44,721 nt of DNA from a virus, in the IMG/VR virus record IMGVR_UViG_3300024518_003042, positions 1 to 44,721 of that record; one strand, given 5' to 3'. Both the position numbers and the translations under genes were made by a program. Numbering within the stretch: position 1 is the first letter of the stretch; the number at the start of each line of letters is the position of its first letter. Positions 7,111 to 43,996 of this stretch are shown piece after piece. The notes beneath the pieces were generated by a model. It was not told where the DNA came from. It ran no database searches and was given only the letters and a program-made list of their open reading frames with translations.

Positions 7111-7494
7111 TTAAACATCAATTTTTTGGTTGTGTGTTTTAAAGTCTTTCTTCCTCATTACCGTTTTACTGATAAAGTCAAATTCCTTACCATCCCATTT
7201 TAACACAAATGGTACATTTACATCATTGTTCATATCGTGTAGTACTGCCTCTGCTTCGTGTCCTAGTTTAGGTATAGTTTTGCCGTACTTCTTATACGTC
7301 TGTTTAAATAGATGTATTAGTTCTGCTGTGTTAATTGGTTTGCCGTTACGTGAATCATTTACTCGGTCCATAAAATGTTTGGTAAAGTTAATATCAATAC
7401 CTACTTTACTAAACAGTTTGTCCGCATACTTTTCTACTGCATTTAAGTCGCCTTGACTAATGTCTTCAAATAATATGTTACGGAGTTTAATCAT
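7111..7494 (-). CDS. Candidate internal head protein (127 aa, MIKLRNILFED start)
   Basis: It starts MIKLRNILFEDISQ, like other proteins here with a proposed capsid-targeting peptide. The mature part is a compact domain: GIDINFTKHFMDRVNDSRNGKPIN, then LIHLFKQTYKKYGKTIPKL, then a C-terminal VPFVLKWDGKEFDFISKTVMRKK. This overall pattern (His-Phe-x-x-Arg-x-n-Asp, then VLxxD and TVM) recurs in T4-like marine phages and loosely recalls small RNase-type toxin folds. That comparison is weak. The start overlaps the last base of the polyprotein gene stop. Confidence 0.65.
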   Translation of the reverse strand: MIKLRNILFEDISQGDLNAVEKYADKLFSKVGIDINFTKHFMDRVNDSRNGKPINTAELIHLFKQTYKKYGKTIPKLGHEAEAVLHDMNNDVNVPFVLKWDGKEFDFISKTVMRKKDFKTHNQKIDV

Positions 7495-10400
7495 TATTTC
7501 TTTTTACTTGGTTTTAAACTTTGGTAAAATTTAGATATTATTTTGTGTGATTGGCTGTAAGCTCTATAATCCATATCCTTTAATTCACCATATAGTTTTT
7601 TCCAAGCCAATCTATCGCCACCCTTAATTTGTCCTATGATTTTACTAAGTTTTGGATTTTTAGTTAAGTATGATTCAATCTTACTCATATCAGCTGTTTT
7701 GAATATAGTGTCTAATCCTTTTACAAAATCCTTTTTAGCTAATTTAGGTCCTAATATAGGAACTCTCATTAATATAGCTTTTCCAAGTTTTTTAAGTTCT
7801 TGTACATCTGCGTTTGTAGTATATGCAATTTTGAACATTACGTATAATGCAAATAAACTACTTACGATTGTCGGAATACTCATTCCCCCAACTGACCCTA
7901 AATCTTCTTCAATTGCTTCGTTTTTACCTTTTTTACCTTTTTCGTACTTGTCTTTGATCTTACCAATTTCTTCGTGTCCTAAGTCTTTACCTGCAGCTGA
8001 TTGAATTTTAGTCATTCCCTCTTTACCGTACTTCTTAACACCTGCTTTGTACATTATTCCGTTCTCATTAACTGATTCCTTATTTAATAATTTTTGAACG
8101 ACAGCATCATATCGAATAACATAATCAAATTCGGATTTTACAATATCTTTTTGTTGTGTTGACATTTTTTTATTCAAAAGAGTTTTTAATTTCCACGATT
8201 TTTCTTTACCACGTTTAACATTATCAATCATACTCTTAATTTCGGGGTCTTGGGATAATTTGTTCATTATTTTTTTGGTTTTGGATTTCTTTAGGAATAT
8301 CTTTATCAATTTAATCCACCCAGCTGGAGATAATTTATTTCTTATTTTACTACTCTCAATTCCACTTACAACTAGTTCCCATACTAGCCAAATAAATGTA
8401 GCTCCAAAAGTCATAGCAAATATAAACCCGGGTATTCTCGGTAAATCAATAAATACTTCATTAACTGATTCTTCACTCATAGCTATTTTTGCTATAGCGG
8501 ATTTTTCTCTATCAGGATAAGATGTCCATTCTTTCTTTTTGGTTGCTAATTTTTGAGCTATTCGTTTTGGTAACCCTACTTCTATTGTTTCACCTGTTTT
8601 AGTATCAATTACTTTGAATTTATCTTGTGCTTCATTAACTGATTCAGCAACAAATGATTTTCCTTGTCCGTTTTCAACTGTGATCTTTGCACCCGGATGT
8701 TCTTTTTTTGCTTTCTCGTATAATGCTGGTATCATAGCCATTATCTTTGTTGGATATTGTCCTACTACTTTACGTTTATTAACATCGTTAGCAATTACTG
8801 TCCAAGTTCCACCTACGTTTAACTCACGTGCGTTTTTCATTATCTTGGTCCACTTGCCTTCATTGAGTTCACTTACAAATTTATCTACTTCTTCGTTGAT
8901 TATTCTGTTAATTGTTTCGTTGTTAACTGATTCTTTTACAATTATTAAATCCTTATCAATTTTTGCAAAATCACCATCCATGAAATAGACTTCATAGTGT
9001 CGACCCTTGTCCTTTATTTTTTTAACCTTTTCTGTATCACCTTTTTTATAAGGAGTAGGAAAATGACCATCACTACTCATATCCGGATAAATGTTTATTT
9101 CCGAGTGTTTTTTAAATGTAATAGTTGCTTCATTAACTGATTCCTTAATTGGCGTCATATAGTGACCCCGTTTAAGGGAGTTCCACGTTGATATCGGAAT
9201 TATCATATACTCACGTGTACTAAAATCATAATATTTAACACCTTTTTTATGGTCAATATCCTTTATTTTGATAGTAGTTTTCTTTTTACCTATTGTATAA
9301 ATATAATCTTTACCTACTTCTATTTGTCCACCTTTTGAATGTGCAAAGTTAGCTTCGTTTACATTTTCTGCATATGGTTCTCTCACGTCAATCTTTCCTT
9401 TGTTTAATAAAGCCTTTAATAAATTAATTTGACCAGGTCTTATTTTTGGCATATCTTTTCTCATTGGTGCACCGGCAGGTGGTCGTTTACTTTGTAGTTG
9501 TTTTAAACGTTTTGATAGAACGTCTTCTCCAATAGCCTCAAACCAAGCAATACTCTTTTCTTTGTCGTAATATTGTGCGGGTACGTTTTTACCTTTATAT
9601 ATTACATTTTTAATGTCGTCCATTGTAGCTTTGAATATGTTAACATCTCCACCTTTAGGTTCAACACCACGTTTGTTTTTCATTGCATCACCGACTGCAC
9701 GTAATACGGGAATTAAATCTCCAATGTTTAGGTTTGCTCGAACTCCACCTACACTTGCATTTGGATTGTTAAAACTTGTAGCGGCATATCTGTGATGTCC
9801 ATCTAGTATGTAGTTGTCTTTACTGATTACAGCTCCTAGATCTCCACCCTCAACACCACCTATAGCCATTGCTAATGTTTTACCTAGGTATATTGCGTCT
9901 TGACTTGGTTTAAGTTTTGATACTGCTATTTGTACGTCTTTGGTTGGTACAACATCATCATCTGCTTTTCCACCATCATTCTTAGGGTCTCCTTTTTTAA
10001 GAAATCCTTTTTTACTGCTTGGTAGTGGATTAGGAAATTCTTTTGGGTCAATTTCTTTAGTTGGTAAGTCTTCGTTAACTGATTCTACTATCTTAAATGT
10101 TTGGGTACGTTCACTTGTAGATGGATTATATTGTTTTTCAATTTGTTTATCTATTTTACTTTTTCTATTACTCTCATCAAATGTAGGTGAATATGATGTC
10201 TTAAATACCCAATCCATACCAAGTTTTTTATAAATGATATCCTTAATATCATTTATTCCCTTAGTAGCCATTTTAGGGCCGTATGTGGCTACTTTAATAG
10301 TTTTGCCCTCTGTTATACCGAGTCTTGTTTTCATTTGTTCTTCGGTAATTTCACCTACGTTATATTTACCTTCGTTTACTTTTCCTTCTATAATATCGTT

Positions 10401-11360
10401 TGCTTTTGCTACTTTAATCCATTCATCAATTAAACCAAGTAATTTCTTATCGTTGTTTTTCTTAGCAAATTTTTGTATAGCCATTATATTTGCTGGTTTT
10501 AAACCATGCCCTTGTTTACCTGTCATACCAACTTTACCGCCTCCGTGAAAACGACTAACACCTGGATTATGGTCTTTCGGATAATTCTTTTCAATGTGTT
10601 TCTCAATTGATTTATCAATATCTTTAGTTGATATTGCCTGACCGTAAGTAAGTTCTACACCCTTTTTCTTTTTGATTGAAGCTTCGTTCATTCCTGCCTT
10701 TAATAATTGCACTTGTTTTCCGTGTCTTGTGTATCCACCTTTCTTTAATAAGTTAACAAGTTTTTGTGGACTAATAGATTTAGTTTTATCATCGAATACG
10801 ATTTCATACATATCAGCCCATTTACGTACAACTGTAATACCACGTGCTATGTCTATCATACTACCTTTGTATCCAGCAATTTTTAATACTGCTTGATTTG
10901 GGGATTCTGATGAAACCTTTTTTAGTTTACTTAACATTGTTTTAGCGTGTTCAAGTGAAGTTTCTCTACCCGGAGACCAACTACCTACATAATAAGTATC
11001 ACCGTGTTCAACCAAGCCCCATTTACTTAAATATTTCATTGCTTTTAAGTCTTTGTTTGGGTCTACTTCTTTGAATAGTTTGTTAAAACCGTTTGGGTCA
11101 ATACCTTCAAATGCCTCGTAATTTGGGTTTGCCATTTCAACATTAATTTCTGTTGACCAGAACGGACCATCATCTCCTTGGACTTTTACTTTGGTTGGTT
11201 TACCTGTACTTATATATAATTCACCTTTAGTTATACGACCTGTGTCGGCTGTAAAAGTTTTTGTTGCAATATAAAACTTATCGTTTGGTCCAATTTTAGC
11301 TTCACTGAGTACTTTAGACTTTTCTTGTTTTACTATTTCTTCGAGTCTTTTTTTATTCAT
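7494..11360 (-). CDS. Putative internal-head polyprotein with repeated VNE cleavage sites (1288 aa)
   Basis: The start chosen is the ATG at 11360 (MNKKRLEEIVKQEKSK), just after the zinc-ribbon gene stop; an earlier in-frame start would overlap that gene. The N-terminus ends VLSE20-A, like a capsid-targeting peptide. Then (V/M/L)-N-E sites recur after residues 226, 330, 430, 669, 744, 834, 910, 968 and 1099, mostly written ESVNE and followed by A, G, N, D or V; a weaker KNE lies at 1148. They separate about eleven modules. One (431-669) has a ParB-like segment with LDGHHRYAA at 519-527. Two (969-1099 and 1149-1288) start with a hydrophobic segment and share a related basic helical C-terminal part. 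Module 1100-1148 is a small basic domain. I infer cleavage by the gp21-like protease in the prohead and delivery of the products with DNA. Confidence 0.7.
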   Translation of the reverse strand: MNKKRLEEIVKQEKSKVLSEAKIGPNDKFYIATKTFTADTGRITKGELYISTGKPTKVKVQGDDGPFWSTEINVEMANPNYEAFEGIDPNGFNKLFKEVDPNKDLKAMKYLSKWGLVEHGDTYYVGSWSPGRETSLEHAKTMLSKLKKVSSESPNQAVLKIAGYKGSMIDIARGITVVRKWADMYEIVFDDKTKSISPQKLVNLLKKGGYTRHGKQVQLLKAGMNEASIKKKKGVELTYGQAISTKDIDKSIEKHIEKNYPKDHNPGVSRFHGGGKVGMTGKQGHGLKPANIMAIQKFAKKNNDKKLLGLIDEWIKVAKANDIIEGKVNEGKYNVGEITEEQMKTRLGITEGKTIKVATYGPKMATKGINDIKDIIYKKLGMDWVFKTSYSPTFDESNRKSKIDKQIEKQYNPSTSERTQTFKIVESVNEDLPTKEIDPKEFPNPLPSSKKGFLKKGDPKNDGGKADDDVVPTKDVQIAVSKLKPSQDAIYLGKTLAMAIGGVEGGDLGAVISKDNYILDGHHRYAATSFNNPNASVGGVRANLNIGDLIPVLRAVGDAMKNKRGVEPKGGDVNIFKATMDDIKNVIYKGKNVPAQYYDKEKSIAWFEAIGEDVLSKRLKQLQSKRPPAGAPMRKDMPKIRPGQINLLKALLNKGKIDVREPYAENVNEANFAHSKGGQIEVGKDYIYTIGKKKTTIKIKDIDHKKGVKYYDFSTREYMIIPISTWNSLKRGHYMTPIKESVNEATITFKKHSEINIYPDMSSDGHFPTPYKKGDTEKVKKIKDKGRHYEVYFMDGDFAKIDKDLIIVKESVNNETINRIINEEVDKFVSELNEGKWTKIMKNARELNVGGTWTVIANDVNKRKVVGQYPTKIMAMIPALYEKAKKEHPGAKITVENGQGKSFVAESVNEAQDKFKVIDTKTGETIEVGLPKRIAQKLATKKKEWTSYPDREKSAIAKIAMSEESVNEVFIDLPRIPGFIFAMTFGATFIWLVWELVVSGIESSKIRNKLSPAGWIKLIKIFLKKSKTKKIMNKLSQDPEIKSMIDNVKRGKEKSWKLKTLLNKKMSTQQKDIVKSEFDYVIRYDAVVQKLLNKESVNENGIMYKAGVKKYGKEGMTKIQSAAGKDLGHEEIGKIKDKYEKGKKGKNEAIEEDLGSVGGMSIPTIVSSLFALYVMFKIAYTTNADVQELKKLGKAILMRVPILGPKLAKKDFVKGLDTIFKTADMSKIESYLTKNPKLSKIIGQIKGGDRLAWKKLYGELKDMDYRAYSQSHKIISKFYQSLKPSKKK

Positions 11361-11364
11361 CCTT

Positions 11365-11547
11365 TTATCCCCATTTGTTAACGAATCTTGTTCGTTGGTC
11401 TTCTTTAACATAATCAACTACATCGTGTTTACCACAATGTGGACAACTTAGTTTTTCAATAGATTCCGCTTCGTTTATTTTCCATTCTTCACTACAAGAG
11501 GAACACTTATAAATATACGTATGTCTAATAAATACTTTATGACTCAT
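11365..11547 (-). CDS. Small zinc-ribbon protein (60 aa)
   Basis: Two Cys-x2-Cys knuckles, CSSC near residue 15 and CPHC near residue 35, make a classic zinc ribbon within a 60-residue basic protein. No other domain is present. The start overlaps the preceding stop by one base (TAATG). It could bind nucleic acid or a protein partner. It is unclear whether it is a virion protein: no targeting peptide is visible, although it lies between two genes proposed to be internal head proteins. Confidence 0.65.
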   Translation of the reverse strand: MSHKVFIRHTYIYKCSSCSEEWKINEAESIEKLSCPHCGKHDVVDYVKEDQRTRFVNKWG

Positions 11548-22021: not shown

Positions 22022-22231
22022 TTACTTTTTAGACCTAGCCTTTTCCTGAGCTTTGTTTTGTTCGTCGATGAATTGGTTGATTTTTTTAATATGGAAGCGT
22101 CTTAACCATACGGGCATATTATATACTCGCTCGTGCGTAAATCCTCCTTGTCCGTGGTACACTAAGTCGTGAATCTCAGCGTGTAGTACCGGTCGATAAC
22201 TACGACCTAGGCCAAAAAAACTCGACGTCAA
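22022..22231 (-). CDS. Small baseplate-associated protein (69 aa)
   Basis: The core EIHDLVYHGQGGFTHERVYNMPVWLRRFHIKKI matches a small protein that usually follows the gp26-type gene in T4-like marine phages, with the conserved VYNMPxWLRxF segment. The frame opens with a TTG codon that overlaps the last 32 nt of the gp26-like gene, and no ATG lies in the N-terminal part, so the exact start is uncertain. The C-terminus is a basic helix (DEQNKAQEKARSKK). It is probably involved in hub assembly; this is inferred from neighbours. Confidence 0.6.
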   Translation of the reverse strand: MTSSFFGLGRSYRPVLHAEIHDLVYHGQGGFTHERVYNMPVWLRRFHIKKINQFIDEQNKAQEKARSKK

Positions 22232-23060
22232 TGGGAATGTCTACTTTGTCGTTGTGTTCCATACATTCTGAACAACTATATTCAAACGACAAATCAACAT
22301 CAGGTTGAATATCTTTTACATACTCTCTAAATGCTCTACTGTCAATGGCAAATAGTTCGTTGTCTACAAAGTTTCTAACCGCTTGTTTACTATCATCTCC
22401 GTCTACTGATACAATTACGTATTTTAAACGGGTAGATAGTTCTTTATCAATTCCTGTTCGTGCAGTTACCTTTTTAAGTCCTTTTAGTTCTTCGGTTATT
22501 GCTTGTTCTAGTCCGTGTGTCAGTAATTGGAACTGTATGGTTCTTCCTGATTTTGGTAGAGTGTATGTAAATATGTTTTGGTGTGGTGTTAATAGTGTTT
22601 CGTCAACTTCTTTATCGGATACAGCAGTTAAATCAACGGATACTTTGTTTTTTTCTGAACAATGACCACACGCTACTTCTACATTGTAGTCTTTACCATA
22701 ACCTAGTACTCGAGCGGCAATCATAATAGCATTTTTATCACCTACCAACAAGTCTTTGTATGATACAGGAGTAATTATCATCGCTTCTAGTAGTTTGTCT
22801 ATAACAACACCTTGTTTAATAAGGTTTGCGGATGCAAGTATATCCTCTTCCTTAGCAGTCATATACTTCATTTCAATGGTTCCACCGGATAATGGGTGTC
22901 CTTCAGGATATAGTAGTCCTTTGCTGGGTAAATCAATTACTTCCGTTGGAAAGTCTGATTTCTTTACTTCTGTTTGTTTGTGTTGTGCTAGTAACGTAGC
23001 TTTTAATTGTTCTTCGTCTATTGGTTGGTTTTTACCTGGTAGGTCGTCTGTAACTTTCAT
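22200..23060 (-). CDS. gp26: gp26-like baseplate protein (286 aa)
   Basis: The segment VIDLPSKGLLYPEGHPLSGG, then EMKYMTAKEEDILASANLIKQG, then DLLVGDKNAIMIAARVLGYG is the hallmark of the T4 gp26-type baseplate family (Pfam T4 baseplate). Two Cys-x2-Cys pairs (CGHCSEKN near residue 130 and CSECM near 267) could bind zinc, as seen in many relatives. It lies with its small partner gene and the tape measure. A late-type box at 23091-23098 and an AAGGAA ribosome-binding site precede it. Confidence 0.8.
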   Translation of the reverse strand: MKVTDDLPGKNQPIDEEQLKATLLAQHKQTEVKKSDFPTEVIDLPSKGLLYPEGHPLSGGTIEMKYMTAKEEDILASANLIKQGVVIDKLLEAMIITPVSYKDLLVGDKNAIMIAARVLGYGKDYNVEVACGHCSEKNKVSVDLTAVSDKEVDETLLTPHQNIFTYTLPKSGRTIQFQLLTHGLEQAITEELKGLKKVTARTGIDKELSTRLKYVIVSVDGDDSKQAVRNFVDNELFAIDSRAFREYVKDIQPDVDLSFEYSCSECMEHNDKVDIPIDVEFFWPRS

Positions 23061-23090
23061 TGTATTCCTTTTGTTGTTTATAACTTTGTA

Positions 23091-23098
23091 ATAAATAT
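23091..23098 (-). promoter_or_regulatory. Late-type promoter box (gp26 operon)
   Basis: TATATTTATTAC on the minus strand, about 30 nt upstream of the gp26-like start and immediately after the terminator of the preceding cassette gene. Confidence 0.5.
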
Positions 23099-23106
23099 AA
23101 GGAAAT

Positions 23107-23138
23107 AAAAAAACCCGTTAATTGTTAGTTACGGGTTT
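23107..23138 (-). terminator. Rho-independent terminator of cassette gene
   Basis: The minus strand reads AAACCCGT, 12-nt loop, ACGGGTTT, then a T-run. It follows the 109-aa cassette gene. The loop sequence CTAACAATTA is shared with the terminator at 23532-23564. Confidence 0.8.
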
Positions 23139-23166
23139 AGTTTGATTTATGTTGATAACTAACTAG

Positions 23167-23496
23167 TTATTCAAATTTCTTATTTAGACGTTTTAAGTTT
23201 TTCCAATAGCTAGATTTTAAATGTTTACTGTCTACTGCTTCTGCGGAATCTCCATATGGTCCTTCATCGTATATATTTAATACATCGTCTCCCTCATATC
23301 CAAGTTTTACTTCAGTGTCACCAAATCTAAATCCAATTTTTTCGTATTTAATATAAGGGTCTTTGTCTGTAACGTTAAACGCTGTGAATCCATTTGATTT
23401 AGCTAAATTAGTTAATTTACTAATTGTTTGGTCGTTACTACCTTCTTGTAAAACGTATTTTCTTCTAAATTTTTCTGCTACTTCTTTACTGTTCAT
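23167..23496 (-). CDS. Cassette protein 1, shared N-terminus (109 aa)
   Basis: It begins MNSKEVAEKFRRKYVLQE-G, nearly identical to the starts of the 126-, 96- and 203-aa neighbours, then diverges into an unrelated acidic domain (KIGFRFGDTEVKLGYEGDDVLNIYDEGPYG). The shared leader ends in L-Q-E followed by Gly, which looks like a capsid-targeting peptide with a prohead-protease site at residue 18. The leader DNA, ribosome-binding site and promoter are identical over about 92 bp with the 203-aa cassette (23439-23530 against 24871-24962). The mature function is unknown. Confidence 0.7.
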   Translation of the reverse strand: MNSKEVAEKFRRKYVLQEGSNDQTISKLTNLAKSNGFTAFNVTDKDPYIKYEKIGFRFGDTEVKLGYEGDDVLNIYDEGPYGDSAEAVDSKHLKSSYWKNLKRLNKKFE

Positions 23497-23515
23497 AGTG
23501 TTTCCTAATTTGTAT

Positions 23516-23523
23516 ATAAATAT
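23516..23523 (-). promoter_or_regulatory. Late-type promoter box of cassette 1
   Basis: AATATTTATATAC on the minus strand, within the 92-bp segment duplicated at 24871-24962. The ribosome-binding site TTAGGAAAC follows. Confidence 0.5.
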
Positions 23524-23531
23524 TGTAAAAT

Positions 23532-23564
23532 AAAAAAACCCGTTAATTGTTAGGTAGTCGGGTT
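23532..23564 (-). terminator. Rho-independent terminator of cassette 2
   Basis: The minus strand has AACCCG, a 16-nt loop, CGGGTT and a run of seven T. It ends the 126-aa cassette gene. Confidence 0.75.
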
Positions 23565-23575
23565 AATGTAATTTA

Positions 23576-23956
23576 TTATGACCTCTCTGTAATATAAAAC
23601 CCTAAAAGAGATTCTAATTCGCTGTGTTTAATAGAGGATTTAATATCAATACCAATAGTCACATCTCCGTCACGTACATATACACTCGCGGTTTTATTTC
23701 CAACTTTTAATTCTTTAGGTAATTTTTTTGATACAGATAATAATTTTTTTTCAATAGCAACTAATTCCTTAACAGTATATTCTTCATTCCATTGGTTCCA
23801 CTCTAATATATAATCATTACCTCTAAGACGTGTTATGTAATAATACCTACCTAATAATGCTAGTTCGGCTTTACGTGACATTTCAAAATCAATATTTAAC
23901 CCTTCGTTTAAAACGTATTTTCTTCTAAACTTGTCTGATACTTCTTTACTGTTCAT
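23576..23956 (-). CDS. Cassette protein 2, shared N-terminus (126 aa)
   Basis: The start MNSKEVSDKFRRKYVLNE-G is the shared leader with two substitutions; L-N-E/Gly is the presumed cleavage site at residue 18. The body is different from cassette 1: GRYYYITRLRGNDYILEWNQWNEEYTVKEL, then a C-terminal segment with GNKTASVYVRDGDVTIGIDIKS. It is a soluble alpha/beta-like domain without a recognised family. Promoter (23976-23983) and leader are nearly identical to cassettes 1 and 4. A separate terminator follows, so it is an independent transcription unit. Confidence 0.7.
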   Translation of the reverse strand: MNSKEVSDKFRRKYVLNEGLNIDFEMSRKAELALLGRYYYITRLRGNDYILEWNQWNEEYTVKELVAIEKKLLSVSKKLPKELKVGNKTASVYVRDGDVTIGIDIKSSIKHSELESLLGFYITERS

Positions 23957-23975
23957 AGTGTTTCCTAATTTGTAT

Positions 23976-23983
23976 ATAAATAT
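23976..23983 (-). promoter_or_regulatory. Late-type promoter box of cassette 2
   Basis: AATATTTATATAC in a leader almost identical to cassettes 1 and 4. Upstream (23990-24020) is a decayed copy of the CCGTTAATTGTTAG terminator, with its stem lost. Confidence 0.5.
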
Positions 23984-24009
23984 TGTAAAAATTAAAAAAC
24001 CGTTAATTG

Positions 24010-24300
24010 TTAGGTAGTAGGATTAGCCCAATACTGTTTAAAGTCTTTTTCATTCTTTACGGGTTTATCCATCCATTCCGGCTTTAATGAAAATATTTGT
24101 GAATATAGTCCACTATATGTTTCCTTGTAGTATTTATCTAGACTTTTAGGTTTATCGTCTTCAAAATTTTCGTTCCACTTTACGGGTAAAAGAAATTTCT
24201 CTTTTCTACCATCGTTAGCTTTGTACTTCGGGGCTTCGTTTAGAACGTATTTTTTTCTAAACTTGTCTGCTACTTCTCTGCCTGATATTGGTTTTTTCAT
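24010..24300 (-). CDS. Cassette protein 3, diverged shared N-terminus (96 aa)
   Basis: The start MKKPISGREVADKFRKKYVLNE-A keeps the core of the cassette leader (REVADKFRKKYVLNE) with a different extreme N-terminus and L-N-E/Ala instead of Gly. The body is short and unrelated (LPVKWNENFEDDKPKSLDKYYKETYSGLYSQIFSL). The own ATATTTAT box is missing, and the leader is TACAAATAAGAATACT. It may therefore be read from the 203-aa cassette 17 nt upstream. The terminator downstream appears degraded. I do not recognise the mature domain. Confidence 0.65.
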   Translation of the reverse strand: MKKPISGREVADKFRKKYVLNEAPKYKANDGRKEKFLLPVKWNENFEDDKPKSLDKYYKETYSGLYSQIFSLKPEWMDKPVKNEKDFKQYWANPTT

Positions 24301-24316
24301 AGTATTCTTATTTGTA

Positions 24317-24928
24317 TTAGTTCCAGCCTATTTCATATGATAACTCATTAATATGGTTTAAAATACCTCTACTATCTGTTACTTTAAATGTTTTGTTCTT
24401 AACATCCATTTCATATCCATCATCACCTGATACCACTACCTTATCATCTTTTGATGTATATGTTATATCTATGGAAGTTGTTGGGTCTTCTTTTATATTT
24501 TTTAATGTTATAGTTAACATTTTTGGACTAGTACTACTCCACTCTGTTACTTTTATTATTTTTGGTAATTTACCCAATATAGTGGATTTAGTTTTATTCC
24601 ATTTTTCAAGTGTTTTTGGAGTATCTAATATACCTTCGTTTAATTTGTTTTTTGGTACCCACATTTGTCTTCCGTTCTTCTTGCCACCTGTAATTTTTTT
24701 ATAACCCGAATAAGGATATACTCTGTCGGTAGGTATAGATGTTCTTCGGTTATTGAATACCACTGTTTTACTGTTAACTTTAACAACTTCTGTTGGTTCA
24801 GTTTCTAAAAAGAAATCCGCACCTTGCATTGGTTTTTCTAAATATTTTACTTTGTCGCCTACTTTAATAGTACCTTCTTGTAAAACGTATTTTCTTCTAA
24901 ATTTTTCTGCTACTTCTTTACTGTTCAT
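24317..24928 (-). CDS. Cassette protein 4, shared N-terminus (203 aa)
   Basis: The first 19 residues (MNSKEVAEKFRRKYVLQEG) are identical to cassette 1. Residues about 20-95 are an SH3-like or KOW-like beta domain (VGDKVKYLEKPMQG, TEVVKVNSKTVVFNN). NKLNE-G at about 94-99 is a second possible prohead-protease site separating it from a C-terminal alpha/beta domain (KWNKTKSTILGKLPKIIKVTEWSS). So this looks like a two-module miniature of the polyprotein organisation. It has its own promoter box at 24948-24955. Confidence 0.7.
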   Translation of the reverse strand: MNSKEVAEKFRRKYVLQEGTIKVGDKVKYLEKPMQGADFFLETEPTEVVKVNSKTVVFNNRRTSIPTDRVYPYSGYKKITGGKKNGRQMWVPKNKLNEGILDTPKTLEKWNKTKSTILGKLPKIIKVTEWSSTSPKMLTITLKNIKEDPTTSIDITYTSKDDKVVVSGDDGYEMDVKNKTFKVTDSRGILNHINELSYEIGWN

Positions 24929-24962
24929 AGTGTTTCCTAATTTGTATATAAATATTGTAAAA
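24871..24962 (-). repeat. 92-bp direct repeat: promoter, leader and targeting peptide (copy of 23439-23530)
   Basis: The segment is identical by eye to 23439-23530. It spans the late-type box, ribosome-binding site, start codon and the codons for the first 19 residues of cassettes 1 and 4. A near-identical shorter copy serves cassette 2 (up to about 23988). Coding sequence diverges immediately after the putative L-Q-E/Gly site. Confidence 0.85.
24948..24955 (-). promoter_or_regulatory. Late-type promoter box of cassette 4
   Basis: AATATTTATATAC on the minus strand, 20 nt upstream of the start, inside the duplicated segment. Confidence 0.5.
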
Positions 24963-24963
24963 C

Positions 24964-24999
24964 TAAAAAAACCCGTAAACAGTTTAATATTTACGGGTT
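24964..24999 (-). terminator. Rho-independent terminator after bL12-like gene
   Basis: The minus strand carries a perfect 10-bp stem, AACCCGTAAA with TTTACGGGTT, then a run of seven T. It ends the small-gene island that finishes with the bL12-like protein. Confidence 0.85.
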
Positions 25000-25058
25000 C
25001 TCTGTTCTTCTGTCTATATGTGTTCTTAAGGTTACATTTCTATTATCATATTGTTTGT

Positions 25059-25379
25059 TTATAGTATTCGTTGGCCCTTTTCATCGATATTCCAACTTCC
25101 ATATTTTTCGTAATACTCGTAGGCGTGTTTCGCCTCTTTTAATCCTATACCTGTTGCATCTTTTACTGCTTTTACACCGGCAAGTTTCATTCCCTTCTTA
25201 TAATGGTCTTCCGCTTGTTGTGCCCACCAATGTTTCTTAGTTGGGTCTGTGTTTAAGTAGGTTTCCACTATGGTTTTTGCAACTTCTTGCCAAGTGCCTA
25301 TGTTTTCTGGACTACTACTCATACCGCGGATTACTAGTTGTACTAGGTCTGATTTTTTTAGTGTTTTAGTTTCCGCCAT
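25059..25379 (-). CDS. Protein with ribosomal bL12 C-terminal-like motif (106 aa)
   Basis: Residues about 64-88 (KLAGVKAVKDATGIGLKEAKHAYE) match the core of the bL12 C-terminal domain, where a VIK-x-VR-x-xTGLGLKEAK helix contacts translation factors. The remaining 60 residues are helical and include WWAQQAEDHYKKG. It is not a complete bL12, because the N-terminal dimerisation domain and hinge are missing. Together with the phage bS21 it suggests the phage touches host translation. The same motif also occurs outside ribosomes, so a different protein-binding role is possible. Confidence 0.6.
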   Translation of the reverse strand: MAETKTLKKSDLVQLVIRGMSSSPENIGTWQEVAKTIVETYLNTDPTKKHWWAQQAEDHYKKGMKLAGVKAVKDATGIGLKEAKHAYEYYEKYGSWNIDEKGQRIL

Positions 25380-25384
25380 ATTCC

Positions 25385-25732
25385 TTATATTAAACTGTTT
25401 ATAACTTGTTCCTTAGTAACCTTGTAACTTGCTCCTCTTGGACTTTCAATTACATACGGATATTTAGGTCTGTTACTTTTGTAATTTGTTATCGTGTATT
25501 TTGTTCCACGTAACAGAATTGTTTTTCCAATTAAAGTGTTTGGATTGTTGGTGTTAACCGTTGGATCAACTTTTCTGTTTCCCACGTTTGTACCAATTAA
25601 CTTGGTTCTGAAATCAGAACTATCAAAACTAATATTTCCCAACTCTAGTTTAATACCATATTTCTTTTCTAAGTCCTTCACTGTTTCAGTAAAATCTCCT
25701 CTAAACTCCTTTAACATTTTTTTATTTATCAT
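25385..25732 (-). CDS. Hypothetical protein (115 aa)
   Basis: The N-terminus MINKKMLKEFRGDFTETVKDLEKKYGIKLELGNISF is a helix-strand pattern I associate with a small conserved protein in many tailed phages; no function is known to me. The C-terminal half (GKTILLRGTKYTITNYKSN, YPYVIESPRGASYKVTKEQV) reads like an SH3-type barrel. It lies 5 nt from the next gene in the small-gene island that follows an early-type promoter. Confidence 0.6.
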   Translation of the reverse strand: MINKKMLKEFRGDFTETVKDLEKKYGIKLELGNISFDSSDFRTKLIGTNVGNRKVDPTVNTNNPNTLIGKTILLRGTKYTITNYKSNRPKYPYVIESPRGASYKVTKEQVINSLI

Positions 25733-25737
25733 AACTT

Positions 25738-26070
25738 CTATTTTAAACTTTTTTCAACTAATTTATTTAATTTTTCCACGTTTGATACTGCTATAATTTG
25801 TTTCCAATACTTAGGCATTTTCTTAGTTAAAATAACCATTTGTTTAGGACTCAAATATCCTTTAGTTTGGTATTGTGTAGCAAACGAAGAAAGTATATCC
25901 CCATCAACACCACTAAACCCAATGTCATTGTGTTTGGTTGTTCCACCATAATCTTGTTCATCTTCCGTCTGATTAGCATATATTGTTGTTAATCCTTTTA
26001 GTGTCCAAACTTTGTTGGTTTTTAACTGTTCCTTAACAAATTCCTTTGTTGCTTTTTTTGTAATTTTCAT
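25738..26070 (-). CDS. Hypothetical protein (110 aa)
   Basis: The pattern WTLKGLTTIYANQTEDEQ, then HNDIGFSGVDGDILSSFATQ, then LSPKQMVILTKKMPKYWKQI recurs in small proteins of many phages, often near DNA-metabolism genes, but I know no experimentally assigned function. The leader is TAAGAGTTATGA, shared with four other early-type genes in the window. The start MKITKKATKEFVKEQL is basic but ends without an L-x-E site. Confidence 0.6.
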   Translation of the reverse strand: MKITKKATKEFVKEQLKTNKVWTLKGLTTIYANQTEDEQDYGGTTKHNDIGFSGVDGDILSSFATQYQTKGYLSPKQMVILTKKMPKYWKQIIAVSNVEKLNKLVEKSLK

Positions 26071-26080
26071 AACTCTTATT

Positions 26081-26266
26081 TTATAAATTCATATAATAAT
26101 CCATCATCAGGTCGTTTTCCCGTTTGTCTTGTGCTGTAACAATAGGAGTAACACCTAATTGTTTGTTAGTACCAACACTCCAGGTACAAAGACAAGCAAT
26201 ACGTCTTAACTGTTCGTTACCAATCTTATCGGCAATTTCTATTTGTTTGTATAATAACTCTTCCAT
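26081..26266 (-). CDS. Hypothetical protein (61 aa)
   Basis: A short soluble protein (EIADKIGNEQLRRIACLCTWSVGTNKQ...RENDLMMDYYM). It is the first gene after the palindromic promoter at 26276-26318, with AAAGG directly before the ATG. The family is unknown. The strong promoter context and tight spacing to the next gene support it as real. Confidence 0.55.
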   Translation of the reverse strand: MEELLYKQIEIADKIGNEQLRRIACLCTWSVGTNKQLGVTPIVTAQDKRENDLMMDYYMNL

Positions 26267-26275
26267 CCTTTATCT

Positions 26276-26318
26276 CTTTTACTATGTAAAAGTACAACAA
26301 AAAAACCACAATTCCAAA
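26276..26318 (-). promoter_or_regulatory. Early-type promoter with perfect palindrome
   Basis: The minus strand has TTTGG, 19 nt, TACTTTTAC, with CTTTTAC ATA GTAAAAG (26276-26292). The upstream 40 nt are closely similar to the promoter at 5136-5178, including AATAATTGCA and TTCGTAAC-like (reverse GTTACGAA) segments. Confidence 0.65.
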
Positions 26319-26354
26319 TTTTTATGCAATTATTTTTCTTAGTTCGTAACAAAT

Positions 26355-26657
26355 TTATGAAGTTTCTATAATCCTTCCCCACTTATCAATCGGAACGAAC
26401 TTCATATCCTCAAATCGAAAACACCCATTCATCTTTCTTTTCAACCATAACATACTGAATTTAACATTAATGTGCCCTAGACTATCTATACCACCAATGT
26501 ATTCACTCGTAAATTTACACGCACCATATATAGACCTACATTCCCCTTCATCGTTAACGTACGCTCTGAACGTACTGTTACCCCAACTAGCACCGGGTAC
26601 GTAAAATGGTTCACCTTTTAAAAACTTCTCTCTGTTTACTTTTGCTTTTTTGTTCAT
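26355..26657 (-). CDS. Hypothetical protein (100 aa)
   Basis: A small protein rich in aromatic residues and with three spread cysteines (EGECRSIYGACKF, NGCFRFEDMKF). It ends in a conserved-looking VPIDKWGRI. No motif identifies a function. It follows the 98-aa gene by 5 nt with an AAGGAT leader and is separated from the next gene by the promoter at 26276. Confidence 0.55.
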   Translation of the reverse strand: MNKKAKVNREKFLKGEPFYVPGASWGNSTFRAYVNDEGECRSIYGACKFTSEYIGGIDSLGHINVKFSMLWLKRKMNGCFRFEDMKFVPIDKWGRIIETS

Positions 26658-26662
26658 ATCCT

Positions 26663-26959
26663 TTATTTTAATCGTTCGTAATTTCCTTTAGTTTTACTTT
26701 TTATTGTGAATGTACTGTCCATAACAACCTTACCGTCAGTTCCTTTAATGATTTCTCCTTTGTTAGCTGCGTAGAACTCTATTATCATCTCAGTCGTTAT
26801 TGTCATACTTAGTATAGTAAATCCATCAGTAACTAAGTACCCATTCTGTAATGGCCAAGCTTGTTTACTTAACAAGTTGAAAGCTTTCTGTTTCATTCGT
26901 CCTGTGATTGGTGCTTCTTGTATTTGAGTGTAAATCTCGTCGTAGTTCATAGTAGTCAT
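26663..26959 (-). CDS. Hypothetical protein (98 aa)
   Basis: A two-layer alpha/beta-looking small protein (NLLSKQAWPLQNGYLVTDGFTILSMTIT, then EIIKGTDGKVVMDSTFTIKSKTKGN). The start at 26959 could alternatively be the second methionine at 26950. It is first behind the promoter at 26978-27020, so it is likely expressed early. I do not recognise the family. Confidence 0.55.
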   Translation of the reverse strand: MTTMNYDEIYTQIQEAPITGRMKQKAFNLLSKQAWPLQNGYLVTDGFTILSMTITTEMIIEFYAANKGEIIKGTDGKVVMDSTFTIKSKTKGNYERLK

Positions 26960-26977
26960 ATCTCGTATCCTTTTTCC

Positions 26978-27020
26978 CTTTTACATAGTAAAAGTACAAC
27001 AAAAAAACCACATATCCAAA
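26978..27020 (-). promoter_or_regulatory. Early-type promoter with perfect palindrome
   Basis: TTTGG, 19 nt, TACTTTTAC on the minus strand, with CTTTTAC TAT GTAAAAG at 26978-26994. It starts the small-gene island after the tail tube terminator. Confidence 0.65.
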
Positions 27021-27065
27021 TTTATTTTTGTTGGGTCATAACAAACTTACGAACCGATTTATCAC

Positions 27066-27094
27066 AAAAAAAGTCCGGACGTTTACCCAGACTT
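27066..27094 (-). terminator. Rho-independent terminator after tail tube
   Basis: The minus strand has AAGTCTGG, 8-nt loop, CCGGACTT (one G-U pair in RNA), then a run of T. It separates late tail genes from the early-type island. Confidence 0.85.
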
Positions 27095-27120
27095 TTAAAT
27101 GTTTTATGTATGTTGTTCTA

Positions 27121-27609
27121 TCAAAATTGTAAAATTGCGTAGTCATATTTCAATGTCACGCCTATCTGTATTTCAGTATCAGTAGCCCAATCCATTCCAC
27201 CCATATCGACAGATGCAATATAAGCACCTTTCAACGTCCATTCTTCAACTTTGTCAGCTACAGGTCCAAGTGAATTAAATGTAATATCTTTTTTGTAAAA
27301 GTCACTATACCCATCTCTACCTGTTACAGATTCGTGTGATAGTCTTACCCATTCCATAACCGCTTGTGCTGCTGATGGAACAACCGGGTCATATAATGTA
27401 ATTGAAACGTCTTGCCAATCACCTTTACCTTTTAGTTTTCTCTTAACGTTGATGTGTTCTAGTACAACATCACCAAATGTAATACCTGGTCTATTTGCTG
27501 CTTTAATTAAGTATGCAGGAATACCCTCGATGTACATAATGAACCTGTTTGCTACTTTTGGTTCGAATGCTGTAAACATTACTTCCGTTGGGTCTAATAA
27601 TTCTGCCAT
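27121..27609 (-). CDS. gp19: Tail tube protein (gp19-like)
   Basis: 162 residues, the usual tube-protein length. FEPKVANRFIMYIEGIPAYLIKAANRP at 14-40 and the later WQDVSITLYDPVVPSAAQAVMEWVR match the T4 gp19-type tube of marine T4-like phages. The C-terminus (EIQIGVTLKYDYAIL) is a typical closing strand. It follows the sheath gene and a small membrane protein. The tube guides the DNA and is driven through the envelope on sheath contraction. Promoter box at 27643-27650 and ribosome-binding site AAGGAG. Confidence 0.85.
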   Translation of the reverse strand: MAELLDPTEVMFTAFEPKVANRFIMYIEGIPAYLIKAANRPGITFGDVVLEHINVKRKLKGKGDWQDVSITLYDPVVPSAAQAVMEWVRLSHESVTGRDGYSDFYKKDITFNSLGPVADKVEEWTLKGAYIASVDMGGMDWATDTEIQIGVTLKYDYAILQF

Positions 27610-39204: not shown

Positions 39205-40191
39205 TTACTTTTTTAAACCTGCAAGTTTTTGCATTCTATTAGAAAACTTATTACTCTCAGAAATTATTTGTTTCTTTGGAGCAGTTGTTCCTGTTACTCT
39301 ACTTGCGTTTTCGTTTACTTTACGTTTTGCTGGTCTTTTCATAGATTCAGCTAATGTAGTGTAAACTAGTTTTACTTCTCTTAAAGTCTGAGCTCTATCA
39401 AAGTTGTCAATAACGTTTAACTTTTGTGACTCGTTTAAGTCATAAGATTTAAACAGTTTGTTCGAAAACAAAAGTTTAGCGTTTAACAAGTTTGTTTCAT
39501 TTAAAGATTCTTTCATTACTTTAATAGTTTTGTAAGCTTCTTCTAATTCTTCAGCCATATCTTCTTCTTCTGTTGAAACCGCATCTGCATCACCATCTGG
39601 TAATCCATCACCACTCATAGAATCGTCTTCTCTTAGTGCTGCGATAATTTCATTGATATCAATGTCATCTTCATGCTCATCTTCAGTTAAGTCGTCGTCG
39701 TTTTCAATTTCTGATGATTCTAATTCTTCAGTCATTTCGTCTTCAACTTCATCTTCCATTTCAACTTCTGAATCCATATCATCTTCACCTTCTAGCTCTC
39801 TAATGATAGCTTCAAGTTCTAAATCTTCTTCATCGTCCATATCCATTTCTGCGTCTACTTCTGAATCCATTTCAACTTCGTCTTCTGCATCCATTTCTGC
39901 ATCCATTTCAACATCGTCTTCTGAATCCATTTCATCTTCGTCCATATCCATTTCTTCATCACCTTCTAGTGATTCTGAATCGTCCATTTCGTCGTAAACT
40001 TCGGCATCCATTTCTTCTTCTTCCCCTTCCATCTCTTCGTCATCCATTTCTTGCATCATTTTAGCAGAAATCATTGATTGTAGTTTTGGAGTGAAAGCTT
40101 CTTCTAAAGCTGCTTTTGCATTTAACAAAGCTGTAGATCTTACCGCTTTAGCATCTGCAATTGCCTCTTTTAACAATTTACTTTTTGACAT
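39205..40191 (-). CDS. gp22: Prohead core scaffold protein (gp22-like, 328 aa)
   Basis: The start MSKSKLLKE-A and the C-terminal third (LNETNLLNAKLLFSNKLFKSYDLNESQKLNVIDNFDRAQTLREVKLVY) match gp22 scaffolds of T4-like marine phages. Residues about 46-190 are a Met/Asp/Glu-only-like acidic repeat (units such as EMDAEMDAEDE). Several L-N-E and V-N-E sites (ESLNE-T, YDLNE-S, KVNE-N, IISE-S) agree with proteolytic removal of the core during maturation. It sits directly upstream of gp23 behind a two-box promoter and a hairpin-rich leader. Confidence 0.9.
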   Translation of the reverse strand: MSKSKLLKEAIADAKAVRSTALLNAKAALEEAFTPKLQSMISAKMMQEMDDEEMEGEEEEMDAEVYDEMDDSESLEGDEEMDMDEDEMDSEDDVEMDAEMDAEDEVEMDSEVDAEMDMDDEEDLELEAIIRELEGEDDMDSEVEMEDEVEDEMTEELESSEIENDDDLTEDEHEDDIDINEIIAALREDDSMSGDGLPDGDADAVSTEEEDMAEELEEAYKTIKVMKESLNETNLLNAKLLFSNKLFKSYDLNESQKLNVIDNFDRAQTLREVKLVYTTLAESMKRPAKRKVNENASRVTGTTAPKKQIISESNKFSNRMQKLAGLKK

Positions 40192-43288: not shown

Positions 43289-43996
43289 TTAATGTTTTTC
43301 AACTGATTCTTTACCTTCAAGTAAACAGCAACAAACACCGTTTACATCACATATAATTTCAGTTATCAAACTGTTTACCCGTGCAAATTTGTTTTCTGTG
43401 ATAAATTGTTTTGATTCGTTTAATACACCTTCTTTAACAACAGGTTGCCAAGCTTCTTGTGTACTAGGATTACTCACAAAGTCCCAACCTAGTAATTCAA
43501 AGTCATCTTCTACCACTACTGCTGGTTCACCATCGGATTCATCAACAATTTCTTTAACAGACCCCATACCACGTGAACTAATACCTACTTTGATACCGGC
43601 ATCAAGTAACGCTTTAAGTGTATTTCCTGCTGGAGTACCTTTAACACCACTTGGTAAGTCACATAGTACTTCAATGGTACCTACTAAGTCGTTACCTTCC
43701 CAATGTGCTTCCGTAATACAATGTGAAACGTTTTGTAGTGAGATAACACTACTGTCCGGATGATCTAATTCCCCTAATGCTCTACGTTCTTTGATAAGTT
43801 GTTGGTAATTTTTAACTTCGCGTTCTAATATGTCACTTGGATACCTACGTCTGTTTTGGTTTAAGGCTTCTTTACGTTGTAATATACCACGTGTCATTGG
43901 ATATCCACGTTGTGAAGATTTACCTTCCATTAGAGTACCGGGTACTATTTGAAAAAATCCATTGGCTCCTGCTGCGTCTACTAAATTCTGTTTCAT
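43289..43996 (-). CDS. gp21: Prohead core protease (gp21-like, 235 aa)
   Basis: LGELDHPDSSVISLQNVSHCITE contains the catalytic His (H79) and ISSRGMGSV at 139-147 the catalytic Ser (S140 or S141) of the T4 gp21-type peptidase (family U9). The whole length agrees with T4 gp21 (212 aa). It has L-x-E sites itself: TLME24-G, VLNE194-S, FITE201-N and LITE213-I, fitting self-processing. It should cleave gp22, gp23 and the internal head proteins listed here, many of which end a short leader in L-x-E or V-N-E. The last 15 residues are unusual (VCCCLLEGKESVEKH). Confidence 0.95.
   Translation of the reverse strand: MKQNLVDAAGANGFFQIVPGTLMEGKSSQRGYPMTRGILQRKEALNQNRRRYPSDILEREVKNYQQLIKERRALGELDHPDSSVISLQNVSHCITEAHWEGNDLVGTIEVLCDLPSGVKGTPAGNTLKALLDAGIKVGISSRGMGSVKEIVDESDGEPAVVVEDDFELLGWDFVSNPSTQEAWQPVVKEGVLNESKQFITENKFARVNSLITEIICDVNGVCCCLLEGKESVEKH

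Follow-up and report, generated by a model that had tools for sequence, protein, structure and literature searches.

A duplicated promoter and leader block joined to unrelated small proteins in a T4-like phage, with a probable role in capsid targeting

Four genes with related leaders in a variable island

The DNA analysed here is a 44,721-nucleotide IMG/VR virus fragment (IMGVR_UViG_3300024518_003042; hereafter the window) of a T4-like myovirus. Its major capsid protein is closest to those of Microcystis phage Mel-JY01 and Flavobacterium phage immuto, with that of Rhodothermus phage RM378 more distant, and the nearest cultured relatives indicate that the host is probably a member of the Bacteroidota. 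Between the tail tube and baseplate hub genes lies a variable island, delimited by comparison with relatives, in which open reading frames and alignment identify four small genes with related 5′ ends:

22200-23060: baseplate hub gene, border of the island
23061-27120, no strand: variable island of 4.1 kb
23167-23496, minus strand: 109-aa gene; leader codons 1-18 at 23443-23496; predicted cut LQE/G; cargo of 91 aa
23576-23956, minus strand: 126-aa gene; leader at 23903-23956; predicted cut LNE/G; cargo of 108 aa
24010-24300, minus strand: 96-aa gene; diverged leader at 24235-24300; predicted cut LNE/A
24317-24928, minus strand: 203-aa gene; leader at 24875-24928; predicted cut LQE/G, then two cargo segments
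23439-23530 and 24871-24962, minus strand: letter-identical copies of a 92-bp block (putative promoter, ribosome-binding site and leader) at the 109- and 203-aa genes
23901-24025, minus strand: third copy of a 125-nt terminator-promoter-leader repeat, 91% identical to 23441-23565
27121-27609: tail tube gene, border of the island

The 109- and 203-aa proteins both start with MNSKEVAEKFRRKYVLQE, the 126-aa protein with the variant MNSKEVSDKFRRKYVLNE and the 96-aa protein with MKKPISGREVADKFRKKYVLNE. The original prediction had estimated about 92 identical bp between the 109- and 203-aa genes, and the longest identical block is exactly 92 bp, extending from 34 bp 5′ of the start to one base beyond codon 19. 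The nearly identical segment predicted for the 126-aa gene is likewise present, with 88–89% identity over 100 bp (−40 to +60 around the start) and an identical run of 52 bp. For the 96-aa gene, in which a diverged segment had been proposed, the leader codons are shared with the other genes but the promoter and ribosome-binding-site block is absent; this gene starts 16 nt past the end of the 203-aa gene. A degenerate leader pattern has four matches in the window versus none in 100 shuffles. Similarity among the four genes ends at LQE/G, LNE/G or LNE/A, precisely where it had been said to stop, and DNA alignment of the four loci reveals the shared block and then nothing beyond L-[QN]-E/[GA]. This boundary fits the L/I-X-E cleavage motif of T4-type prohead proteases (PMC9026906), with the caveat for cut-site prediction that L-X-E is a weak motif.

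Promoter-like motifs and hairpins accompany the repeated segments:

23515-23522, minus strand: promoter-like motif TATTTATA, 26 nt 5′ of the 109-aa start
23975-23982 and 24947-24954, minus strand: the same motif at the same position before the 126-aa and 203-aa starts
23111-23138, minus strand: terminator-like hairpin 3′ of the 109-aa gene (−9.0 kcal/mol, z −2.8)
23537-23564, minus strand: terminator-like hairpin 3′ of the 126-aa gene and upstream of the 109-aa promoter (−6.2 kcal/mol, z −1.7)
24966-25003, minus strand: strong terminator upstream of the 203-aa promoter (−18.6 kcal/mol, z −5.5)

The proposal of a late promoter within the shared block holds for a promoter-like motif but not for the T4 late consensus itself, as the coding strand carries its reverse complement, TATTTATA. 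Across the coding strand of the whole window TATTTATA occurs 15 times versus a single TATAAATA, and it is enriched 5′ of genes both here and in several relatives. Terminators had been assigned to two of the four genes; the hairpin of the 109-aa gene is clear, that of the 126-aa gene is weaker, and only the former is clearly better than shuffles. The hairpin 3′ of the 96-aa gene has decayed, and the strong terminator before the 203-aa gene is additional to those predicted.

Among 80 relatives, the gap between tail tube and hub measures 82–171 bp in 58 and contains inserts in the other 22, with leader-like starts such as MKxxELRxLIxEEVxxxLxE in genes at about 10 of the 22 insert-bearing loci. 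Four relatives (L006, L014, L016 and L019) have at this site a gene starting like a sugar-nucleotide epimerase (RTxLVTGGxGFIGSNF). The product of a 106-aa gene in the window (25059-25379, minus strand) weakly resembles the C-terminal domain of ribosomal L7/L12 (E 1.8e-4, under the Pfam cut-off).

Unrelated bodies and leader reuse in relatives

Beyond the leader, the four proteins have no convincing relationship to one another. BLAST between every pair of bodies returned no significant match (best E 0.1), and comparison with shuffles gave no convincing score (28 pairs in each of two modes, lowest p about 0.02). Peptide-pattern searches of IMG/VR for the 203-, 126- and 109-aa cargos detected no relatives, and tblastn in phages, with the body of the 109-aa protein and the whole 203-aa protein as queries, produced chance-level matches only, none of them in T-even phages; the search for the 96-aa cargo covered Pfam, PHROGs and PADLOC as well as the loci retrieved from relatives. 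Homology of the bodies throughout, the outcome named in advance as contrary to the original prediction, was thus sought by BLAST, shuffles, pattern searches and tblastn and was not found.

The 203-aa protein contains a domain that occurs elsewhere under a different leader. An immuto-like contig (L139) encodes, at 8601-8900, a 99-aa protein that matches residues 22–91 of the 203-aa protein (42% over 71 aa, E 1.5e-11) and carries an FDLKKFL-type leader, not that of the window. The contig protein ends in MWVKI, where the 203-aa protein reads MWVPKNKLNE/G and continues into a second segment:

24632-24643, minus strand: internal LNE/G of the 203-aa protein (residues 96-99), where the domain in common with the contig protein ends by sequence comparison

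Read most simply, these sequences make the 203-aa protein a probable double cargo in which the internal LNE/G is an additional candidate cut site. We do not claim the internal LNE/G as a DNA-level remnant of the leader, the match being only 11 nt of common codons.

The original prediction called for a search of related phages for the same leader on other bodies. The exact leader of the window has no convincing further occurrence among the IMG/VR and GTDB genomes searched, from which very near records may be missing, whereas other leaders do stand before many unrelated bodies. The leader pattern also matched one Lentisphaerae MAG, and a match in one IMG/VR contig was rejected as the motif there belongs to another, unrelated reading frame. 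Flavobacterium phage immuto has three genes that start MEN(T)FDLKKFLVEN[KR]LT and have unrelated bodies. More widely, this second leader, FDLKKFLVENKLT..LxE (the FDLKKFL family), was recovered by a scan that yielded at least 120 stretches and at least 97 distinct proteins, and it is found on at least 55 BLAST-distinct body clusters. Among the matches listed, 126 of 131 occurrences are N-terminal, [LIVM]xE lies at the leader boundary in 54 of 55 body clusters, and conservation reaches the E of this motif and then collapses, with about 2.4 bits in the E column and less than 0.9 in those that follow, in an alignment whose columns 4–13 were set by the search patterns and columns 14–21 were free. 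Homologues of window or immuto proteins are present at 78 of the 81 FDLKKFL loci among those listed. A scan for RMQKLAG, the core of a third leader, RMQKLAGIIxE, gave 81 occurrences at C-termini and 25 at N-termini. In the latter position the element precedes 21 distinct bodies; IxE occupies the same position in every case, and its E lay outside the search pattern. Derivation of the window leader from the RMQKLAG family lacks significant support (shuffle p 0.02–0.05, with another window protein scoring higher).

Cargo and leader are also exchanged among relatives. Homologues with an N-terminus outside the same leader pattern exist for 41 of 96 FDLKKFL bodies among those listed and for 7 of 24 RMQKLAG bodies, some of these homologues being variant spellings of the same leader or fragments of open reading frames. 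Several others are clear leader swaps, such as those between L223 and L350, and between L142 and the MKKSELVKLIKEELN gene of Flavobacterium phage immuto.

A scaffold tail, head proteins and possible cargo functions

Homologues of gp23 and of the gp21-type protease are both encoded within the window, together with a scaffold-like protein recognized by its position before gp23 and its acidity:

39205-40191, minus strand: scaffold (gp22-like), ending in KKQIISE/SNKFSNRMQKLAGLKK, a tail that matches RMQKLAG leaders
43289-43996, minus strand: homologue of prohead protease gp21 (Peptidase_S77, E 2.7e-24), the predicted cutter

No family match was found for the scaffold-like protein. Its C-terminal tail KKQIISESNKFSNRMQKLAGLKK (39208-39279, minus strand) matches KKQILSEEFRRMQKLAGIITE, an N-terminal leader in other phages, and the C-termini of scaffolds have the RMQKLAG element preceded by an L-X-E of their own. 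Of the 81 C-terminal occurrences, 38 are followed directly by a gp23 homologue and another 14 reach the end of a contig or locus; the remaining 29 have no gp23 seen nearby, and those among them that were displayed have similar tails. As RMQKLAG is C-terminal before gp23 and the window scaffold has the same ending, one leader family matches the scaffold tail, including the preceding L-X-E. This resemblance between sequences hints at how such tags may dock. Elsewhere in the window, a 1307-aa protein (7494-11417, minus strand) has seven E[SN]VN[EN] junctions, and its segments past the first and sixth junctions match separate proteins of relatives; it looks like a polyprotein of head-internal modules.

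None of the four cargos has a significant match to a named family in Pfam or PHROGs. Weak Pfam matches (HA-17, colicin Ia and ProQ-C-like) fall under the curated cut-offs and were discarded, the ProQ-like match being absent from the contig homologue of the 203-aa protein. A model of the 126-aa protein has a low-confidence leader helix and an alpha/beta body mostly at pLDDT 67–88, for which Foldseek returned nothing below E 0.001; an AlphaFold model of the 203-aa protein gave no usable fold (pLDDT 40). Among leader-bearing cargos of relatives, one has an HD domain and another matches the anti-CBASS protein Acb1 just over the Pfam cut-off and contains two HxT motifs:

L343:4266-4829, plus strand: Acb1-like protein (Pfam) with an RMQKLAG leader; two further genes with similar leaders lie nearby

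T4 Ip1, Ip2 and Ip3 each inhibit one particular GmrSD restriction enzyme (Nat Commun 2025, PMC12373910), which makes counter-defence a reasonable guess for the cargos; by this analogy, they may act in counter-defence or host takeover.

Predicted capsid targeting, alternatives and significance

The closest known system is that of the T-even internal proteins (IPI, IPII, IPIII and their T2 and T6 relatives) with their capsid-targeting sequence (CTS), so the idea of such a tag is itself already published. T4 internal proteins are carried into the core by propeptides, are cut by gp21 behind the motif L/I-X-E and are ejected in their mature form (PMC9026906, PMC3012670, PMC12373910); the mature proteins diverge, and reviews state that the CTS allows T4-like phages to package diverse proteins (PMC9026906, PMC3012670). 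The window resembles this system in its small, non-conserved proteins at variable loci, their common N-terminal propeptide ending in L/I-X-E and a gp21-type protease in the same phage. It differs in a longer leader (18–22 aa) of different sequence, whereas the first 10 residues of T4 IPIII suffice, in hosts that are probably Bacteroidota, and in relatives whose reused leader families carry far more kinds of cargo, one family matching the scaffold tail. Neither leader nor cargo has sequence homology to T4 internal proteins (Pfam and PHROGs; tblastn of the 109-aa body and the 203-aa protein). The injected anti-restriction proteins Ip1–Ip3 (PMC12373910), each a cargo with a packaging signal, offer a model for the possible action of the four cargos, for which we infer the same arrangement, although these have no homology to any named family searched.

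We conclude that the shared N-terminus is very probably a capsid-targeting propeptide that loads unrelated cargo into the head, and that the block encoding it was copied onto cargo modules. Late in infection, three of the genes would be transcribed from their own TATTTATA-type promoter and the 96-aa gene by read-through from the 203-aa gene. The leader of 18–22 aa would dock each new protein into the prohead scaffold core, and the gp21-type protease would cut after L-X-E, so that the cargo would stay beside the DNA in the head and pass with it into the next host on ejection. Promoter activity, packaging, cutting and ejection are all predicted here. The promoter, ribosome-binding site and leader, with related terminators nearby, would have been copied as one block by recombination and joined to unrelated cargo modules. 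A duplicated delivery leader that captured new cargo, as originally proposed, remains the best reading of the unrelated bodies and of the leader reuse and cargo swaps in relatives, with delivery itself deduced from the T4 precedent. No virion proteomics for the window phage or its relatives was found in the open-access literature.

Whole-gene duplication, with bodies decaying fast while the N-terminus and promoter were conserved, could also produce genes that resemble one another only at their 5′ ends. The bodies are indeed small and fast-evolving, and genuine duplicates of this kind exist in a relative (G002/L018), where tandem genes at L018:5200-6783 (plus strand) have the same leader and bodies that are 47% identical. 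By contrast, the 109- and 203-aa genes share 92 bp at 100% identity but no detectable similarity in their bodies, body lengths differ more than twofold, and one domain of the 203-aa cargo stands under another leader elsewhere, as do swapped cargos in relatives; we consider this explanation very unlikely. T4-type phages are known to have mobile promoter/stem-loop cassettes, and the selected unit might instead be a regulatory cassette of terminator and promoter that spreads in the same way, with the leader hitchhiking. The repeat does hold related terminators and a promoter-like motif, and promoter and terminator hairpins recur between genes as in those cassettes. Unlike them, however, it enters coding sequence and stops at the predicted protease site, L-X-E; the 96-aa gene retains the leader without the promoter, and FDLKKFL arrays keep leader DNA at 80–91% identity under dissimilar upstream sequence (35–57% over 60 bp), making a regulatory cassette unlikely.

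A leader that directs proteins elsewhere, to the tail, baseplate or membrane, or that acts in translation, would suit an island flanked by tail genes, those of the tail tube and the baseplate hub. Against a destination other than the head stand the L-X-E boundary with gp21 in the window, the element of one leader family carried by the scaffold tail, and the leader-bearing genes that relatives also have away from the tail tube–hub island; this possibility appears quite unlikely.

For capsid targeting, a wider interpretation has our moderate confidence: T4-like phages of Bacteroidota would possess a general tag-based cargo system, in which several unrelated leader families serve unrelated proteins numbering many dozens, an Acb1-like one among them, and one family would be the C-terminal tail of the scaffold moved to the N-terminus. 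It seems somewhat probable, too, that the window captures a unit of this system just after a recent duplication, still including promoter and ribosome-binding site. The leader sequences, the scale of their reuse in Bacteroidota-type phages, the match between leader and scaffold tail and the recent duplication with promoter and ribosome-binding site are new in the sense that they were not found in the open-access literature, to which our search was confined.

The match between leader and scaffold tail suggests a possible mechanism of capsid targeting, mimicry of the core protein's own tail. If capsid targeting is correct, a short N-terminal tag marks proteins that are packaged into the head, and probably injected, in a large group of aquatic phages on which there are almost no experiments, and many orphan genes become candidate effectors of counter-defence or host takeover. 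If the general tag system also exists, the injected repertoire of these phages would be readable from sequence.
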